Below, piece after piece: positions 30,519 through 40,009 of a DNA stretch of 64,000 bases. The position numbers and the translations under genes were made by a program. Within the stretch, counting starts at the first letter, position 1; every line of letters begins with the position of its first letter. The DNA is from Desulfatibacillum sp. (GTDB lineage: Bacteria; Desulfobacterota; Desulfobacteria; Desulfobacterales; SpSt-501): NCBI GenBank assembly GCA_020725555.1, contig DYEU01000032.1:62001-126000 (forward strand). The letters run 5' to 3'. A model generated the notes under the pieces. It saw nothing but the letters and a program-made list of their open reading frames with translations. It had not been told where the DNA came from and searched no databases.

Positions 30519-30893
30519 TCATTCGTAGCCGAGCTCGATCAGGCGCTCCTCATCGATGCCCAGGAAATGGGCCACCTCGTGCACCACCGTGATCTCGATT
30601 TCCTCCTCGAGTTCCTCGCGGCTGGCGCACATCTCCTCGAGCGGCCTTTTGAAGATGTAGATCGTGTCCGGGTAGAGCGGCGGTTCGGTCGCCGAGCGCT
30701 CGTTCAAGGGAACCCCCGTGTAGACGCCGAGCGGCGGATCCTCGGGCGAGAAGCCCAGCTCCTCCAAGAGCGCGGGGTCGGGACGGTCCTGGACGGTGAT
30801 GACGACGTTGTCGAGGTGCCGCCGGATTTCCTCCGGGATGCGGCGGATCGCCCGCTGGACGATGCGCTCGAATTCGGCGCGGCTGAGCTTCAT
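30519..30893 (-). CDS. zincin-type metallopeptidase-like protein (minimal MMP family)
   Basis: A 124-residue cytoplasmic protein. The C-terminus holds VVHEVAHFLGI, an HExxH zinc site, followed by DEERL with a possible third ligand. Preceding residues GVYTGVPLNERS and YIFKRPLEE fit the small zincin family found in many bacteria, whose peptide substrates are unknown. GAGGAGG precedes the ATG at 30893. It lies 24 bp before the membrane gene and is the first gene of the TRAP-side operon. Confidence 0.8.
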   Translation of the reverse strand: MKLSRAEFERIVQRAIRRIPEEIRRHLDNVVITVQDRPDPALLEELGFSPEDPPLGVYTGVPLNERSATEPPLYPDTIYIFKRPLEEMCASREELEEEIEITVVHEVAHFLGIDEERLIELGYE

Positions 30894-30962
30894 GAAGCCT
30901 CCTCGAAGGCGGATGATAGAAGAGTCCATGTGGAAACTCAACCCGCCCGAGCGCCGCGGCGG

Positions 30963-30991
30963 TTGGAAAGCCCGGGGGGCCGTGGTAGAAT
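30963..30991 (+). promoter_or_regulatory. sigma-70 promoter of the 1055-aa gene
   Basis: TTGGAA (30963-30968) and TAGAAT (30986-30991), 17 bp apart. Transcription would start near 30999, 32 nt before the first in-frame ATG. Confidence 0.6.
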
Positions 30992-31030
30992 GGTCTGAAA
31001 CGCCTGCATGGCCCGGCCGCATGCCGGCCG

Positions 31031-34000
31031 ATGCGGAGGATTCCGGGCGCGGCCTCCGCCGCCGCGCACCCCGCGCTCATGGAGCACGCCGCCAAGATCC
31101 CGCCGCTCTATTTCGACCGCAAGGACCGCGATCTCATCCGGATCGTCAACGAGTCCCTGGACACGACCCGCGCCTCGCGCAAGCGCTATTTCCCCTACTT
31201 CCATCCCAACGGCATCAAGGAGCTGGCCGAGAGCAAGGGGTTGCGCACGGCCTACGCCGTGGCCTACCTGCTGAGTTCCCTCGAGGTCGGGGGCGTGGAG
31301 GACCGGCTGCGCGCGCTGCGCATGCTGCGCATGGAAGTGATCGACGCCGCCGAGGGCCCTCTCCCCAAGAACACGGCCCGCGTGCTTCTCGAGATCATGA
31401 AACACCTGGTGCGCGCCCGGGGGGACGAGCGGCGCCAGCTCGAGCTCGCCCACGATTTCCGCTTGGCGGCCTCCGGCAAGCCCCGCTTCATCCGCCGCAT
31501 GCTGCGGCGCTACCACCTGCTCGAGATGCCCGAGGCCTGGAACCAGATCGCCTTCGACGACCACGTCCACGACGTGAACACCAAGGGGCGGAAGTCCTCC
31601 TCGCACCTCATCATGGACGCCTGGATCAAGGGCATCCGGCGGCTGCGCGTGATCCACTACTACTACCTCGAGCCGCGCTTCGCCGCCGAGCTCTTCGAGG
31701 CGGCGCGCATCCTGGAGATCGACGTCCGCATCGGGATCGAATACTACGCCCGCTTCCGCGGCCGCTACGTGCAGCTGATCTGGGTCCCCCGGGGCTTCGC
31801 CGACAGCCAGGCCTTTCTCTGTTTCCTCGAGGAGCCCGCCGTCTCGCACCTGATGGAGGCCGGGCGCAGGGCCGCCCGCTGGCAGCAGCGTTCGGTGATG
31901 GAGCTGCTCGGAAAATTCAACGCCGTCCACCGCCGGGCGATCGAGCAGCGTCTGGGCGTGGAGCTGGCCCCGATTGCGGAATCGGAGTTCCTCGCCTTCG
32001 TCGGCATCGGTCAGAAATCGAAGCTGCACCTGTCCAAATTCATCGAGGACCGGCTCGTGCTCGCCCTCGAGCGCCGGGTCGCGGAGCTGCGCCGGGAGTT
32101 CCCCGCCGCCTCCGCCGAGCGCCGCGCCGAGATCGAGCGCTGGGTGGCGGAGGTGAACCGGTTGGACCTGGAGGCCTTCGTCGACGGCTTCCTCGAACCC
32201 GAGCGCAACCCGGAAATCCGCTACCCCGAGCAGCCTTCCACGGACCCGGACACCCCCGAGCTGCTGCGGCTCGGGCCCCGGGAGATCCTCGCGCGGCTCG
32301 CCGCCCTGCATTCCGGCTATCGCATCACGCTCAACCTGACCCATCTCACCGCGGCCGACGTCCTCGAACTCCTCTACGACTGCCAGGGGATGATCACGCG
32401 GCTCGAGCTCTTCAACCTCAAGGACTACACGGCGGGGAAGACCGAGCACATCGGGGACATCGGCCGCCTGATGCTCGCGGTGAACGAGGGCAGCGTCATC
32501 CACCTCAAGCAGGTGATCCGGGAGATCATCGCCGGGCTTTCCGCCGCGGACGACCCCCGCAGCGCCGCCCAGGCCGAGAAGCTCCGCGTGATCCTCTACG
32601 ACATCGAAAGCTTCACGTCGTATTACGCCGGCCGCGCCCTGAAGGCCCGCATCGGCAGCGACTCGACCGGCCGCTCGCCCCGCCTGCCGGGCATGGGCAT
32701 CGCCGTGCTGGAAACCCTCCCGGCGCGGGCGCGCCGAGAGGTCCGGCGGCAGGACCCGGCGCAATCCCGCATGCTGCTGCCGGTGCAGATGACGGTCTAC
32801 AAGACGGTGATCCACCTCCCCCGCGAAGCCGCACTCTCCGCCTCCCGGGAGTTCAACGGCTTCTCCGGGGAGCCGTCCTGGAACCCGTTCGGCCGGAACC
32901 GGGTCGTGCGCTGGCAGGTGGAGACCACGCAGACCCGGCTTGCCGAACCGGGAAACCTCGTGACCCTCGGCGGCTTCCGCCGCTCGATCGACAACGGCCT
33001 GCGGCTGGAGGCCCGGGAGGCGGCACCTCGCCCCGCGCTTCCCCCGCTGTCCTGCCTGAACAGCCGGCTCAAGAACGCGCTCAAGGTGCTCTGCGGCTTC
33101 CTGCCGGCCTTCGCCACCTTCTTTTTCACCCAGCCGTGGTGGCTCCTGGCCTACGGCGGGGCGGTGATCTGGTTTGCGATCACGGGGCTGAGGAACATCC
33201 TGCAATCCGTGCTCGGCGGCGGGGGGCTCCGGCGCTCGCCGCTCCTCAACTGGAGCGACTACGTGAGCTGGAGCCGCCTGACCGACTCGCTGTTCTTCAC
33301 GGGGTTTTCGGTCCCGCTGCTGGATTTCCTCGTCAAGACGGTCCTTCTCGACCGCGGCCTCGGGATCAACACCGGCAACCAACCGGCCGTGCTCTACGCG
33401 GTCATGGCCCTGGTGAACGGGGCCTACCTCTCGAGCCACAACGTCCTGCGGGGGCTTCCCCGCGAGGCGGTGGTCGGCAATTTCTTCCGGAGCGTGCTCT
33501 CGATTCCGCTCGCCTTCGCCGTCAACGCCGCCGCCGGCGCCGTGCTCGCCTCCGCCGGTGTCGCCTCCCCGGCCGCGGAGCTGCAGAAATGGGCGGCCAT
33601 CATCTCCAAGGCCTCCTCGGATACCGTGGCCGGCTTCATCGAGGGCATCGCCGACCGGCGCAGGAACATCCTGCTCCGCCTGCGCGACCTGCGCGTCAAG
33701 TTCGGCCAGCTCTTTGAAACCTATGCGCAGCTCGAGCTGATCCACCCCGAGGTCGAGGTCTTCACCGTGTTGCAGGAGACCCCCGCGGCGGAGCGCCGCT
33801 CCGCGGGGGAGGCGCGCGACCTCGAGCGGATCATCATGATCCACGCCCTCGACCTCTTGTATTTCTGGATGGTCCAGCCGCGCGGCCGCGATGCGCTCGA
33901 GCGTTTCCTGCAGACCCTGACCGAGGACGAACGGTTGATCTTCGCGAGCTCCCAGTTCACCCTGCAGCGCTGCCGCGAGATCAGCCAGCTTTTCCTGGAC

Positions 34001-34198
34001 GGAATCCTCGGGGAGAATTTCCCCAAGCCGCTCTCGTTCTACCTCGCCCGCTACGGGGAGTACCTCGAGGCCGTCAAGCGGCTCGCCTTCGCCGAAACCT
34101 CATCCCTCACCGCGCCGCCGCCGCGCCGCTACACGGTGAGGCCTCCCGTGCTGAAATGCCCCATCGCGCCGGGGAACCGGGAGGCGGACGTTCCTTGA
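31031..34198 (+). CDS. large membrane protein with PHP-like domain, function unknown
   Basis: A 1055-residue protein with no family I can name. Residues about 170-330 read like a PHP phosphoesterase barrel: FDDHVHD has the D-x-H-x-H motif (His178, His180), then SSHLIMDAWIKGI, His209 in VIHYYY where PHP enzymes have TDH, and GIEYY with Glu237. A charged helical stretch (about 330-400) and a second alpha/beta part (430-540) follow. Residues 686-845 hold about five membrane helices (FLPAFATFFFT, WWLLAYGGAVIWFAITG, LLDFLVKTVLL, VLYAVMALVNG, IPLAFAVNAAAGAVLAS). The C-terminus is helical and soluble. The start is uncertain; 31079 is an alternative and neither has a ribosome site. Confidence 0.75.
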   Translation: MRRIPGAASAAAHPALMEHAAKIPPLYFDRKDRDLIRIVNESLDTTRASRKRYFPYFHPNGIKELAESKGLRTAYAVAYLLSSLEVGGVEDRLRALRMLRMEVIDAAEGPLPKNTARVLLEIMKHLVRARGDERRQLELAHDFRLAASGKPRFIRRMLRRYHLLEMPEAWNQIAFDDHVHDVNTKGRKSSSHLIMDAWIKGIRRLRVIHYYYLEPRFAAELFEAARILEIDVRIGIEYYARFRGRYVQLIWVPRGFADSQAFLCFLEEPAVSHLMEAGRRAARWQQRSVMELLGKFNAVHRRAIEQRLGVELAPIAESEFLAFVGIGQKSKLHLSKFIEDRLVLALERRVAELRREFPAASAERRAEIERWVAEVNRLDLEAFVDGFLEPERNPEIRYPEQPSTDPDTPELLRLGPREILARLAALHSGYRITLNLTHLTAADVLELLYDCQGMITRLELFNLKDYTAGKTEHIGDIGRLMLAVNEGSVIHLKQVIREIIAGLSAADDPRSAAQAEKLRVILYDIESFTSYYAGRALKARIGSDSTGRSPRLPGMGIAVLETLPARARREVRRQDPAQSRMLLPVQMTVYKTVIHLPREAALSASREFNGFSGEPSWNPFGRNRVVRWQVETTQTRLAEPGNLVTLGGFRRSIDNGLRLEAREAAPRPALPPLSCLNSRLKNALKVLCGFLPAFATFFFTQPWWLLAYGGAVIWFAITGLRNILQSVLGGGGLRRSPLLNWSDYVSWSRLTDSLFFTGFSVPLLDFLVKTVLLDRGLGINTGNQPAVLYAVMALVNGAYLSSHNVLRGLPREAVVGNFFRSVLSIPLAFAVNAAAGAVLASAGVASPAAELQKWAAIISKASSDTVAGFIEGIADRRRNILLRLRDLRVKFGQLFETYAQLELIHPEVEVFTVLQETPAAERRSAGEARDLERIIMIHALDLLYFWMVQPRGRDALERFLQTLTEDERLIFASSQFTLQRCREISQLFLDGILGENFPKPLSFYLARYGEYLEAVKRLAFAETSSLTAPPPRRYTVRPPVLKCPIAPGNREADVP

Positions 34199-35329: not shown

Positions 35330-36244
35330 TCATCCGGGGAAGCACAGCCGGTCGCCGGCGGCGGCGAAACGGACGGCTTCCCCCAGTGCGGCGCGCAGCC
35401 GGCAGACCTCGGCCGCCCCCGAGCAGTGGAGCGGAAAGAGCGCGGCGGGCGCCTCGCGGGAGAGTGCCGCGATGGTGCGCTCCAGGCGCTCGTCGGAAGC
35501 CCCGCGCAGGTGCAGCCCGCCCACGATGCCGGCGATCCTGCGGTTTCCGAAACGCCGCCGCACCAGCCCCAGCATGCCCGCGATCCCGCCATGGCAGCAT
35601 CCCGTGACGAGCACCAGCCCCGCATCCCCCAGATCGGCGACCAGGCCGATGTCGTCGTCGATCTCGTCGCCGACCCGGCCGCCCGCCCCCGCGCGCAGGA
35701 ACCCTGCGGGCCTTTCCCAGGGCTCCCGCGGCGCGATCCCGCCGGTCGTCCACAGCCCCGGAGTCAGGACGAACGGCCCCGCCGCTTCGATCAGCTCCAC
35801 GCCCGCCCCCCGCACCTCGGCGGCCTCCAGGCCCGCCCCGATCTCGCTGAGCCGCGGCCGCGCGCGGTAGCGCGGCCCCCAGAACCGGGGATGGCAGACG
35901 ACCCGCCGCGGCCGCGGCGCCCCGGAGAGGAGCGCTTTCAGCCCCCCGGCATGGTCGTAATGGCCGTGGCTCAGGACGACGTCCGCGATCCCCCCGGGGT
36001 CGATCCGCAGGGCGTTGAGGTTGTGCCGCAGGACCGCGCCGCTTTGGCCGGTGTCGAAGAGGACCGTCCGCTCGCCGCGGGCGCCCTCGGCGTGAAGCAG
36101 GAGCGCCAGCCCGTGTTCCGCGCGCAGGTCGCGGGCCTCGACGCGGTTGTCGACGAGCAGGGTCACGGTCAGCCGCCGCAGGGGCTCCTCTCCTCCCCCG
36201 GCGTCCCCGGGCCCCGCGGCGGGCGACGGCGGCTCAAGGGGCAT
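35330..36244 (-). CDS. metallo-beta-lactamase-fold hydrolase
   Basis: A 304-residue MBL-fold protein. SHGHYDHAGGL is the HxHxDH metal site, GCCHGG supplies another ligand His and LHCSG a last one. The layout (VLFDTGQSG, LRHNLNALRIDP, GGLHLRGASDERL) matches the COG1237 group of MBL enzymes, which includes dihydropterin-pathway phosphate synthases. The start at 36244 overlaps the stop of the PPDK-like gene as ATGA, so both proteins are made together. Confidence 0.85.
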   Translation of the reverse strand: MPLEPPSPAAGPGDAGGGEEPLRRLTVTLLVDNRVEARDLRAEHGLALLLHAEGARGERTVLFDTGQSGAVLRHNLNALRIDPGGIADVVLSHGHYDHAGGLKALLSGAPRPRRVVCHPRFWGPRYRARPRLSEIGAGLEAAEVRGAGVELIEAAGPFVLTPGLWTTGGIAPREPWERPAGFLRAGAGGRVGDEIDDDIGLVADLGDAGLVLVTGCCHGGIAGMLGLVRRRFGNRRIAGIVGGLHLRGASDERLERTIAALSREAPAALFPLHCSGAAEVCRLRAALGEAVRFAAAGDRLCFPG

Positions 36245-39213
36245 CACGGGCCTCCCTCCCCTTCCTCCCCCGGGAGCAGCATGACCCCCTCCCCCCGCAA
36301 GCCGTCGATGCCGATGCGAAGGGGCCGCTCCCAACGGAGATGGAGAAGCGTCTCCGTTTCCGCCACGGTCGCGGCGGCGCTTCGCAGCCGCTCCCAGCGG
36401 ATGAAGGCCTGCGACCCGTAGGGGACGGTGAGGCAGCCGATGTGGAGGGAGGTGACGTTCTGGAAAAAATGGGTCCCCTGGGCGGGCTCGACGTTGAAGC
36501 CCTTGAGCCCCACCTCGACCAGCACCCGCACCCCCGAAATCTGCGCCCAGCTGACCCCGATCCCCATCGACGGGTCGGTCGACCCCCAGCGGCCGAACCC
36601 GACGAGAGCGTAAGGGCGCCGCTCCTCCACCAGACGGCGGTTCACCTCGCCGATCTCGCCGGCGATCTCCCGGGTCCGGGAGACATCGAAGGCCTCGGGC
36701 TTGACGCACAGGAGGTCGCAGACCCCCTGCACCCAGCCGTTTCCATGGGCGAGGTGCGAGTAGCAGAAGGCGCGCTCCTTGAGTTCCTCGGGGATCGCCA
36801 CCCGTTCCCAGCGGTGGCGCGAGGCCATCGGCCGCAGCTGAAGCGGGTAGAAGACGGGGCGCCCCTCCTCGGGCAATTCGCAGGCAAACTCGATCTCGAC
36901 CGGGATGCGCATGGAGCGCTCGCAGGCGGTCAGCAGCGCGGCAAGAAGCTCGCCAAAGCGCATCCGGGCGTCGCGCAGCACCTTCTGGAAGGTCACGATC
37001 CGCGGCCCCTCGTAAAAGAAGCTGTCCACGAGCAGCCCGCTGTCGGACTGGTAGACCGAGGCCACCTTCTGCAGGACGCCGTCGGCCTCGGCGGCCGCAA
37101 GCGGCAGCAGGCGCAGGCGCTCCATCGCGGCCGGGTTCCGCGGCTCCGGGACCGGCGCCATGTCCAGGGCGTAGAAATGCTTCTGGGTGAAATAGAGCCA
37201 GTCGCGCATGTCGGCGAACTGCGGCAGCAGGAGGGGGTAGCGGGGGCAGAACCGCACGATCGCCCCCCCTTCGACGACGGTCTTGCCCAGCCCGAGGGCG
37301 ACCTGCGCGACCCCGTCCTCCGGCTTCATGTACGAGAGGGGGTAGAAGTTCCGGCTCTGCGCCACCCCCGAGAAGGTGGGGTAGAACCACGGCCCGCGGC
37401 GGCTCCCGCCCAGCGTCTGCACGACGACGGACATGCGCTCGTCCTCCAGCCGGTAGCCGGTCTGCCGAAAGTAGGCCCGGGGATTTTCGCCGAAGGTGGA
37501 AGCCCAGACGAGCTTGAGGGCGGCGAGGAGCGAGGCGAGGCGCTCCGCGATCGTCTCCTCGCTGTTCGGCAGCATGTAGGTCGCGTAGATCCCCGCCAGC
37601 GGCAGGTTGTGGGAGTCCTCGAGGATCGAGGAAGAGCGCACGGCGAGCGGCTCGCCCACGGCCTGCAGCCAGGCCCGGAGGTCCTCCACGAGCTGCGGCC
37701 GGAGCCTTCCCTCGAGGAAGCGGCGCCGGAGTTCCGCGGGCTCGAGTCCGCCCTCGAGCGCGGGCTCCCAGAGGCGGTTGTCCTCCATGAAATGCACGAA
37801 CTCGTTGGCGCAGACCACGAGCGTCGGCGGGATCTGGATCGCCATCGCCGGGAACTGCGCGCGGAACTCCAGGCGCGAAAGCAGGTAGCGCAGAAACCCG
37901 ATGCCCCGCGCCTTGCCGCCGAGCGAGCCCTCCCCCAGGCGCATGAACTGCAGCTCCTTCGGGTTGCGGCCGGGAAGGAAGCGCGTGATGATGTCGCTTT
38001 GCTTCTCGTAGAGGACGGTTTCGATGACCCGGATCAGAAAGGACCGCAGCTCCTCGGCGTCCCGGAAGTCCTCCACGCGCTTGGGGTAGAGCTGCTCGGC
38101 GATCCGGATTTCGGTGCGGGCCATCATCCAGTGGGAAAAGTGCTGCCGAGCGGCGTGGTAGAGGAGCGAGGCGGCCGGCACCTCGCGCAGCCGGTCGAGG
38201 AGCTCGCGGGGGTTCCCCGCCCGGGCGATCTCGCGGCCGTCGGGCAGGCGGAAGATGAAATCCCCGAACCCCAGGGCCTCCCGCAGGAACCGCTGCAGGT
38301 CCTCCATGAGGCGCGTGGAGTTCTTGTCGATGAAATAGGCCTGAAGCGCCTCGGCCCGGGCGCGGTTCGTTTCCGGCTCGGCCGACTGGATGCAGATCGG
38401 CAGATCGGGCATGTCGCGGCGCAGCAGGCGCACCAGCGCGAAGCCCGCCTCGGCGTCCGGCCGGCCCTCCCGGCGGAAGCGTACGTCGGTGATCACCCCC
38501 AGCATGTAGGGCCGGAACCGGCGGTAGACCTCCACCGCCTCCTCGTAGCTCGAGGCCAGCAGCACCTTGGCCCGGGAGCGCATGCGCAGTTGGCGGTGGA
38601 AATGGTTGAGGCCCTCGTCGATCAGGCGCCGCGTGAGGTCCATGATCGCCGTGTAGATCACCGGCAGGAAGGTGGACACGTGGGCGACAGAATCCTCCAC
38701 GAGCAGGACCACGCGCACGCCGCCGGCCTGGGTGTCGTGGTCGGCGTTCATCCGGTCCTCGAGGGACTTGACGATGGCCACGAGCAGCGTGGGGTCGTTC
38801 TGCCAGAGAAAGAGCCGGTCGACGCCCGGGAGCGCCTCCCGCTCCCCCAGCCGCGCAAGCACGCCGGGATCGGTGACGAGCAGCACGACCGGCAGCTCCG
38901 GCCGCAGGGCCTTCACGCGGGGGGCAAGGTCGAGCGCGAGGTCCGCCTCCTCGTGCACCACGGCGAGCACGAGATCGACCGCGGCATTGGCGATGACCTC
39001 GAGGGCGCGCTCGATGCTTGCGACCTTGCGGATCAGGGGCACCGTGGAAAGCCCGCGGTCGGCGTACTGCTGCCAGATGCGCTCTTCGAGGGTGCCGTCC
39101 TCCTCGATGATGTAGGCGTCGTAGACGCTCGAGACGAGAAGGATCTCCCGGATCCTGCGGGTCATGAGCGAACGGAAGGTATCGAAGCGGTGCTGCAGGC
39201 TGTCGATGTCCAC
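36244..39213 (-). CDS. PPDK/PEP-synthase ATP-grasp protein with two receiver-like domains
   Basis: A 989-residue protein with a GTG start at 39213, preceded by GGAAAGGA at 5-nt spacing. Residues 22-155 and 167-310 read as receiver-like folds: the second has LLVEDS, an Asp in GVITDVRF and a Lys in YFIDKNST, the first lacks a clear phospho-Asp. Residues about 425-690 are the PPDK N-terminal ATP-grasp (GSLGGKARGIGFL, EPLAVRSSSILEDS, LAGIYATY), continuing to IEFACEL and PLQLRP. There is no phosphohistidine domain or PEP-binding barrel. A C-terminal domain of about 200 residues (GFGRWGSTDP, GTHFFQNVTS) ends it. It cannot make PEP; a regulatory or ATP-dependent role is inferred. Confidence 0.85.
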   Translation of the reverse strand: MDIDSLQHRFDTFRSLMTRRIREILLVSSVYDAYIIEEDGTLEERIWQQYADRGLSTVPLIRKVASIERALEVIANAAVDLVLAVVHEEADLALDLAPRVKALRPELPVVLLVTDPGVLARLGEREALPGVDRLFLWQNDPTLLVAIVKSLEDRMNADHDTQAGGVRVVLLVEDSVAHVSTFLPVIYTAIMDLTRRLIDEGLNHFHRQLRMRSRAKVLLASSYEEAVEVYRRFRPYMLGVITDVRFRREGRPDAEAGFALVRLLRRDMPDLPICIQSAEPETNRARAEALQAYFIDKNSTRLMEDLQRFLREALGFGDFIFRLPDGREIARAGNPRELLDRLREVPAASLLYHAARQHFSHWMMARTEIRIAEQLYPKRVEDFRDAEELRSFLIRVIETVLYEKQSDIITRFLPGRNPKELQFMRLGEGSLGGKARGIGFLRYLLSRLEFRAQFPAMAIQIPPTLVVCANEFVHFMEDNRLWEPALEGGLEPAELRRRFLEGRLRPQLVEDLRAWLQAVGEPLAVRSSSILEDSHNLPLAGIYATYMLPNSEETIAERLASLLAALKLVWASTFGENPRAYFRQTGYRLEDERMSVVVQTLGGSRRGPWFYPTFSGVAQSRNFYPLSYMKPEDGVAQVALGLGKTVVEGGAIVRFCPRYPLLLPQFADMRDWLYFTQKHFYALDMAPVPEPRNPAAMERLRLLPLAAAEADGVLQKVASVYQSDSGLLVDSFFYEGPRIVTFQKVLRDARMRFGELLAALLTACERSMRIPVEIEFACELPEEGRPVFYPLQLRPMASRHRWERVAIPEELKERAFCYSHLAHGNGWVQGVCDLLCVKPEAFDVSRTREIAGEIGEVNRRLVEERRPYALVGFGRWGSTDPSMGIGVSWAQISGVRVLVEVGLKGFNVEPAQGTHFFQNVTSLHIGCLTVPYGSQAFIRWERLRSAAATVAETETLLHLRWERPLRIGIDGLRGEGVMLLPGEEGEGGP

Positions 39214-39265
39214 GGGGGTCCTTTCCACGCCGGGGGCAGGGGGCACACCTCCCGCCCTGTTTCGA

Positions 39266-39295
39266 CTTATAGATTGCCGCATCCGGCCCTGGCAA
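39266..39295 (-). promoter_or_regulatory. sigma-70 promoter of the PPDK-like gene
   Basis: Minus-strand TTGCCA (39290-39295) and TATAAG (39266-39271), 18 bp apart, each 5 of 6. The leader is about 46 nt. Confidence 0.7.
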
Positions 39296-39508
39296 GACCG
39301 CGTCCCGGAAGGAGGCGGCGGAGACGGCCGCAGGGCCGGGACCAAGACCGCTTTCCCGGCGCCGGGGCGCGGTGATGACTTTTTCCTCACCGGGGAATCC
39401 CGCCCCGCCCCGGCGAAGACCCGCAGCCCCCGCAAAGGTTCCTTCCGCGCAGATGGATCGCGTGCCATTTCCAACGGTTCGGGAGACGACGGCCCCCGCC
39501 AGGGGTCC

Positions 39509-39524
39509 TGGCACGGCTCTTGAT
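39509..39524 (+). promoter_or_regulatory. possible sigma-54 promoter of the CxxC gene
   Basis: TGGCACG-N4-TTGAT: the -24 element is perfect and the spacing is right, but the -12 GC is GA. It lies 135 bp before the gene at 39659. Confidence 0.4.
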
Positions 39525-39658
39525 TACCCCGGTTGCGCAGTTCACGCCCTGCCGGGCGCCCGGGACTTGGCAGGCGGCGGGAGGCTGAGGCCCCCGACCG
39601 CCGGCCCGGACGCGCGCGGCGCTTTGGAAACCCTATCCCATGCGAAAGGAGACCGCGC

Positions 39659-40009
39659 ATGCACCCCGAAACCCTCCGCCACGCGAACCCCTTCCCCCCG
39701 ACCGCGGCCGTGGAACAGGAAGCCTTCGAGGCCCTCCTCCGGGCGAGCCTGTGCGCCAACTGCCGGCACCAGGACGGCTGCGCGTTTCTGGCGCAAACGC
39801 GGGTCCCGATTGTCGTGTGTGAACTTCATGCCTGCGGCGCCCCGGAGACACCCCGGCTGCGGCTGCTGCGAACCGCTCCCGCGCCGGCGGCCGCCGGGGG
39901 CGAGGGCGAGGCGGAAGCGGCCGGCCTGTGCGCGAACTGCGACCACCGGAGCGACTGCCGACTGCCGAAGCCCGCCGGCGGGGTCTGGAGCTGCGAGGAA
40001 TACCGCTGA
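39659..40009 (+). CDS. small protein with two Cys-rich metal-binding motifs
   Basis: A 116-residue protein. AAAGGAG precedes the ATG. The region is duplicated: CANCRHQDGC...VVCELHAC at about 40-65 and CANCDHRSDC...WSCEEYR at the C-terminus. Each CxxCx5C plus a later Cys could bind zinc or an Fe-S cluster. The linker is Ala/Gly-rich. The function is unknown. Confidence 0.7.
   Translation: MHPETLRHANPFPPTAAVEQEAFEALLRASLCANCRHQDGCAFLAQTRVPIVVCELHACGAPETPRLRLLRTAPAPAAAGGEGEAEAAGLCANCDHRSDCRLPKPAGGVWSCEEYR

Follow-up and report, generated by a model that had tools for sequence, protein, structure and literature searches.

A conserved inner-membrane protein of Thermodesulfobacteriota carries an altered PHP domain that probably binds a phosphate compound

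Within a 64,000-nucleotide stretch of a Desulfatibacillum sp. genome (contig DYEU01000032.1, positions 62,001 to 126,000; the window), we identified an open reading frame (ORF) of 1055 amino acids, at 31031–34198 on the forward strand, encoding what appears to be a highly conserved inner-membrane protein with an altered PHP (metal-dependent phosphoesterase) domain. At the membrane surface, this protein probably binds a phosphate compound and perhaps also cuts it. Computation established its homology, its predicted fold, its residue pattern, and its distribution. On these we build a reading to which we assign a probability of about 0.5, namely that of a membrane-coupled variant PHP domain that would bind a phosphorylated ligand using no more than one metal. 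Specifically, the protein would be an inner-membrane protein of Thermodesulfobacteriota whose cytoplasmic PHP domain descends from RNase AM-type (COG0613) phosphoesterases and is flanked by a helical region on its N-terminal side and, on its C-terminal side, by a membrane domain of five to six helices. The pocket would bind its ligand via the putative pocket residues K185, R187, K188, H192, and H333, and, in about five of every six members, would carry no more than one metal, bound at the alpha site (H178, H180, E237, and D544). Further, it may face a patch of conserved polar residues on the membrane helices' cytoplasmic side, with ligand binding or slow single-metal hydrolysis coupled to the membrane domain.

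The ORF, present as called in the original prediction, is a real gene. It has full-length relatives, shows purifying selection relative to its closest relative, L002 (nonsynonymous divergence, dN, 0.117; synonymous divergence, dS, 0.541), and has a guanine-plus-cytosine (GC) content of 0.68/0.45/0.93 at the three codon positions. Translation likely starts at the ATG at 31079 (M17), giving 1039 amino acids, because the ORF of L002 begins there. The window protein had no match at E up to 10 among Pfam, NCBIfam, and PDB sequences. Relatives are encoded by 396 genome stretches, of which the best 80 were kept for analysis; these are 50 to 83% identical (best segment), and 79 are near full length. 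One member cut by a contig end (L070) was excluded from the 80-row alignment (A1), which is less diverse than a second alignment of 21 diverse family rows (A2). For residue counts, 125 collected proteins were reduced by a first duplicate filter to 111 and by a second to 106 unique members, and one locus (L109) was dropped for want of a sufficiently long ORF. A sister clade (L111, L170, and G329) is approximately 28 to 29% identical and matches both the PHP part and the membrane part.

The AlphaFold2 model built on the 80-row alignment (predicted local distance difference test, pLDDT, 83.3; predicted template modeling score, pTM, 0.83) shows an alpha/beta domain at residues 170–560, interrupted by a helical insertion. 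From the model, VIA comparisons, and profile alignment, the first half of a variant PHP barrel spans residues 170–268 (31538–31834, forward strand, as are all features of the protein), the insertion spans residues 269–425 (31835–32305) at the place of the RNase AM-type lid and carries Q328 and H333, and the second barrel half, placed by the model and VIA, spans residues 426–560 (32306–32710). A beta-strand region at residues 586–645 (32786–32965) lies inside the range (to 632–648) of the PHP structure matches. In Foldseek, the top four matches to the model were PHP-type proteins, three of them at E < 0.001. The best VIA match was 3e0f (Z 17.4, root-mean-square deviation 3.1, 255 residues), followed by 2yb1 (Z 16.1) and RNase AM 9etk (Z 15.9). 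Polymerase PHP domains scored approximately 10 to 12, other PHP rows together 8.8 to 12.5, PsfC 8.4, and other folds from approximately 6 onward.

Profile comparison pointed the same way. The reference profile drew on RNase AM-type proteins of related genomes, 28 in all from 29 loci (L127 to L155, the last of which gave none); against it, A2 scored 38.6 in hhalign (E 0.0003, 140 columns, probability 40%), while 60 column shuffles reached at most 22.4 and the reversed control 14.8; the protein's own N- and C-terminal regions scored 16.1 and 9.7. The aligned pairs, RNase AM-type versus family, were DLHIHS..SDGT with DDHVHD..KGRK, TDHD with the YYN region, GVEIS with GIEF, and GQ.GRPHIA with GQ.S.LHLA. 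Five of the 21 diverse members matched the PHP nucleotidase model NF041577 within an E limit of 10, the best of them at 3.7e-4. When nine members were scanned with an E limit of 0.1, L111 and L113 matched PHP models at residues approximately 175–265, and five others had no model match. Curated family cut-offs lay far above the best members (19.7 of 400 bits for NF041577 and 12.8 of 375 bits for NF047791), and A1 and A2 profile searches of the PDB returned only unrelated proteins, at E 0.33 or worse.

That the PHP resemblance arose by chance and the domain is some other barrel could be argued from the want of any relevant Pfam match in the 21 members at E up to 10, and from hhalign probabilities of 40% or, with the other alignment, 7%. 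Against this stand the PHP-type identity of the top four Foldseek matches, VIA Z scores of 15.9 to 17.4 versus approximately 6 for other folds, and an hhalign score well above those of the shuffled and reversed controls, which largely refute it; we regard coincidence as highly improbable, and the PHP fold and homology of residues 170–560 as very likely. The fold suggested by the original prediction for residues 160–560 is thus borne out by structure matches and by profile homology that beats the controls, and neither of the outcomes named beforehand as damaging, a non-PHP fold or an unconserved HVH, occurred, HxH being conserved. As a separate observation, weak NF041577 matches to polymerase-like ORFs are a source of false family counts. 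Specifically, eight further long ORFs (L162 to L169), polymerase-like and of approximately 1000 amino acids, match NF041577 weakly in their PHP domain; they were rejected as relatives, since their motifs resemble those of error-prone DnaE-type polymerases. L170 is a sister member.

The closest known systems are RNase AM (YciV/Rnm) and BAD_1165 (PDB 9etk and 3e0f/3o0f), which share the PHP barrel with its helical insertion (Z 15.9 to 17.4), and the HxH, GIE, and GQ...H motifs of RNase AM-type proteins from relatives align with the family. Unlike the family, however, RNase AM and BAD_1165 are stand-alone proteins of approximately 280 amino acids, without the N-terminal helical region or the membrane domain, and the 28 RNase AM-type proteins compared carry a fuller set of metal-ligand motifs. 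A second likeness is to the Chromobacterium amidohydrolase 2yb1, presumably the 3',5'-nucleoside bisphosphate phosphatase of NF041577. It shows in the Z of 16.1 for 2yb1 and in the weak NF041577 matches, although the family falls far below the cut-off of that model and has mostly replaced its beta- and gamma-metal ligands.

The residue pattern departs from that of the active enzymes. Active PHP proteins are described as holding three metals through nine residues (PMC5636811, PMC3666897, and PMC11656708); in the diesterase of PMC11656708, the alpha metal is held by two His, an Asp, and a bridging Glu, the beta metal by two His, and the gamma metal by an Asp and two His. In the family, the motif I region, D176-D-H178-V-H180-D181...K185-G-R187-K188 (31556–31594), includes the D-x-H-x-H noted previously, with D176 and H178 in 106/106 and H180 in 99/106. 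The Glu proposed earlier at the bridging position, E237 in GIE (31739–31741), is present in 101/106. The last PHP motif (GSD.H) is replaced by G542-S-D544-S-T546-G (32654–32671), located by motif order and the divergent member L111. The alpha-metal set of H178, H180, E237, and D544 is complete in 89 of the 106 members, including the window protein. By contrast, the gamma-metal positions are replaced by K185 (103/106), Y210 (97/106), and T546 (94/106), and the beta-metal positions by L436 (97/106) and by a variable residue, mostly Q, N, K, R, or S, at 248; K185, Y210, and L436 are each found in 80/80 rows of A1. At the TDH place, H209-Y210 (31655–31660), alignment to RNase AM-type PHP proteins pairs the TDH His with Y210, while the His209 described as conserved is not: it aligns with the Asp of TDH and is Tyr in 67 members, His in 38, and Gln in one. 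Most members retain only the four alpha-site positions of the nine, and the phosphoesterase activity implied earlier is putative.

D181, R187, K188, D196, K200, E459, and N462 are invariant (106/106), and among fixed 25-residue blocks the one at 176–200 ranks first in conservation (0.91 and 0.89 in two scorings). Conservation counts also mark E459..N462..D465 (LELFNLKD, 32405–32425), and Q328 and H333, which align with the GQ.GRPHIA motif without its GRP letters, are kept in 105/106. The strongest of these features, D181 with K185-G186-R187-K188, was absent from the original prediction, as were the motifs E459..N462 and G542-S543-D544 of the second half. Alpha ligands, in turn, are lost in 17/106 members: E237S in a clade of five, H180Y with D544S/N in a clade of seven, D544G in three, and D544A in two sister members. 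Parsimony on a 111-row FastTree tree, five of its rows duplicates, counts five changes for these losses. Much of the putative charged pocket is, by these counts, more constant than the metal site. We slightly favor binding with signaling or regulation over turnover, since several lineages have lost alpha ligands but all keep R187, K188, and D181. Published variants offer a parallel: among polymerase PHP domains that have lost ligands, six of the nine positions are most often taken over by Arg, which puts a positive side chain where a metal would sit (PMC3666897). The PHP domain of E. coli DNA polymerase III alpha is likewise a PHP fold with lost metal ligands (Z 11.8), in which the first site His is Arg and which forms part of a polymerase (PMC3666897), while the family differs in keeping the alpha site in most members and in having Lys for the gamma-site Asp.

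These same residues could instead form an active enzyme. A membrane-bound phosphoesterase in which the alpha metal, together with K185/R187/K188 and D181/H192, makes up a rebuilt one-metal site could act at the cytoplasmic face on, for example, a nucleotide or a lipid carrier phosphate ester, the alpha-less copies being inactive partners or retired. We consider this possible, and less probable than not. All four alpha ligands persist in 89/106 members, the Asp position included, and an Asp has been proposed to activate the attacking water in a DnaE1 PHP domain (PMC5636811), although the match of D544 to that Asp is our own position pairing. Further, the seven H180Y/D544S/N copies form one clade, and the arrangement of copies partly resembles enzyme/pseudoenzyme pairs. 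The H180Y copy occurs in seven genomes of one genus (g75), four of which (G076, G109, G165, and G190) have a second family copy; the two second copies compared, in G076 (L113) and G190 (L123), keep the alpha ligands while their partners (L112 and L122) carry H180Y and D544S. The other three (G138, G235, and G256) show only the altered copy, with no second one, so pairing of paralogues as enzyme and pseudoenzyme is supported only in part. Also against an active enzyme are the loss of the beta and gamma ligands, given the three metals and nine residues of active PHP proteins, the retention of the rest of the protein by E237S and D544G/A members, and a PolC domain which, with one altered residue, is reported to have no exonuclease activity (PMC5636811).

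The second half of the argument concerns the membrane. The approximately five membrane helices and long helical parts noted originally are evident: residues 678–868 (33062–33634) show five hydrophobic peaks, and a model of the isolated domain (pLDDT 84, pTM 0.73), with helices at 678–700, 704–730, 747–777, 785–806, 811–841, and 847–904, adds a sixth candidate membrane helix. Long helices also make up the N-terminal region (residues 28–160; 31112–31510), which is conserved and for which no known family was found, and the C-terminal region (residues 869–1026; 33635–34108). Loops rich in Lys and Arg lie on the cytoplasmic side under the positive-inside rule. Because loops 728–746 and 807–819 average 2.7 and 2.0 such residues, and loops 778–784 and 842–846 have none, both termini and the PHP domain are predicted to be cytoplasmic. 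Conserved polar residues (R721, N722, H803, N804, R807, R820, K860, and D864) lie toward that side. The membrane domain had no convincing match in the PDB (best Foldseek E 0.44, best VIA Z 5.9), which does not prove a new fold. The claim that no described protein has this build fits the family, structure, and literature searches, which were limited in extent.

Given this domain, the PHP part might serve as a structural scaffold only, with function residing wholly in the membrane part. The E. coli Pol III PHP domain, with five of nine ligands replaced and a role in stability (PMC3666897), sets a precedent, and membrane-domain blocks are among the most conserved after the motif I block. Yet block 176–200 is the most conserved of all and holds invariant charged residues beyond what a pure scaffold would need; this is no proof, as residues beside lost ligands can exceed the ligands in conservation (PMC3666897), and we judge a scaffold unlikely.

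Several observations weigh against our proposal of a membrane-coupled, ligand-binding PHP domain. First, the alpha set is kept in most members, favoring retained metal chemistry. Second, the basic set is not absolute: K185 is changed in three members (to Glu in the two of the sister clade, to Leu in L106), and H333 is Arg in L108. Third, the profile evidence is uneven. The significant alignment spans the first barrel half and the lid only, at its 40% probability; positions 436, 544, and 546 were placed via motif order, L111, and the range of the fold, with no significant local alignment, and are less certain. A1 gave a weaker result (score 29.7, E 0.005, probability 7%) and, in global mode, no match, and two of the nine scanned members (L061 and L024) matched the unrelated undeca_RfbP (E 0.018 and 0.088) about as strongly as some matched PHP models. 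Finally, the gene neighborhood offers no functional clue.

The family is spread across sulfate-reducing and syntrophic lineages. The best 80 of the 396 stretches come from Desulfobacterales, Syntrophales, Desulfobulbaceae, and Desulfovibrionaceae, plus metagenome-assembled genomes labeled only Deltaproteobacteria, Proteobacteria, Thermodesulfobacteriota, or bacterium. A family match occurred in 32 of 297 genomes sampled across the phylum, our own included, and in 27 of 58 close genomes; these include every one of the seven in the same genus, as well as three from the sister clade and two with only short fragments. These fragments (G346:C6:4538-4819 and G348:C30:9712-9924) contain in-frame stops and are perhaps gene remnants. 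A membrane-domain profile run over 148 phylum genomes found only family members, in 15 genomes, plus a marginal 32-residue fragment in a sixteenth. PF10136 (Gcr-type membrane protein), a candidate for the C-terminal domain, was not among the matches of the 21 members, and its profile was silent in 59/59 genomes and also in 14/14 controls. No relatives were found on the plasmids and viral contigs searched, and PADLOC anti-phage defense models matched none of the 21 members at E up to 0.1. The gene dsrA was present in 28 of 32 family-carrying genomes (counting G235, whose two dsrA pieces score under the curated cut-off) versus 116 of 265 others (P = 2e-6, uncorrected for shared descent); the four family-carrying genomes without it all belong to one family, f42.

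Neighboring genes vary between lineages. Across 110 loci (3 kb of flank upstream in only 60, downstream in 57), no neighbor cluster apart from ORFs overlapping the gene recurred in more than 15, a count reached by a histidine kinase family. The PPDK-like gene at 36244–39759 (reverse strand; 1171 amino acids, PPDK_N and DUF5752 after a long N-terminal part) had been expected to recur with the membrane protein, an expectation that found no support: among 125 other loci, within the flank lengths given above, the same arrangement occurs only in L002, and the sole other genome with it, G299, is apparently the same genome as L002, as its contig position matches. A 40%-identical PPDK-like piece lies 6.6 kb off, on the opposite side, in L052. 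Our own genome has a second, 43%-identical PPDK-like copy, and 42 of 58 genomes, ours included, have one. Co-occurrence with the family in these genomes, leaving out the short fragments in G346 and G348, is weak (P = 0.036, or 0.12 without the own genus). Convergent permease genes, apparently UgpA/UgpE-like judging by their sequences, lie downstream in seven loci, two of them representing a single gene; an operon with them was rejected, as they are on the opposite strand. Separately, a zincin-like metallopeptidase gene at 30519–31022 (reverse strand) is divergent from the membrane-protein gene and is the same neighbor in L002, L003, and L010. The forward-strand ORF at 39533–40009 encodes a small protein, without a Pfam match, whose two Cys clusters (CANCRHQDGCAF... 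and CANCDHRSDCRL...) possibly form a metal-binding repeat.

A protein of approximately 1000 residues that keeps approximately 50% identity in numerous lineages of sulfate reducers and syntrophs, and whose window representative matches nothing in Pfam or NCBIfam, is a sizeable annotation gap. As to its class, we suggest only tentatively a membrane signal or lipid-phosphate protein in which the PHP site has been rebuilt from three metals to one metal plus a lysine/arginine site. In such a protein, a membrane domain with a fold not seen before might present a phosphorylated head group at the cytoplasmic face for the site to read or cut, and some lineages would carry pseudoenzyme copies. Should our favored reading hold, nature would have provided an example of a three-metal phosphoesterase site remodeled around a lysine and linked to a membrane domain, useful for studying how enzyme sites turn into sensors.

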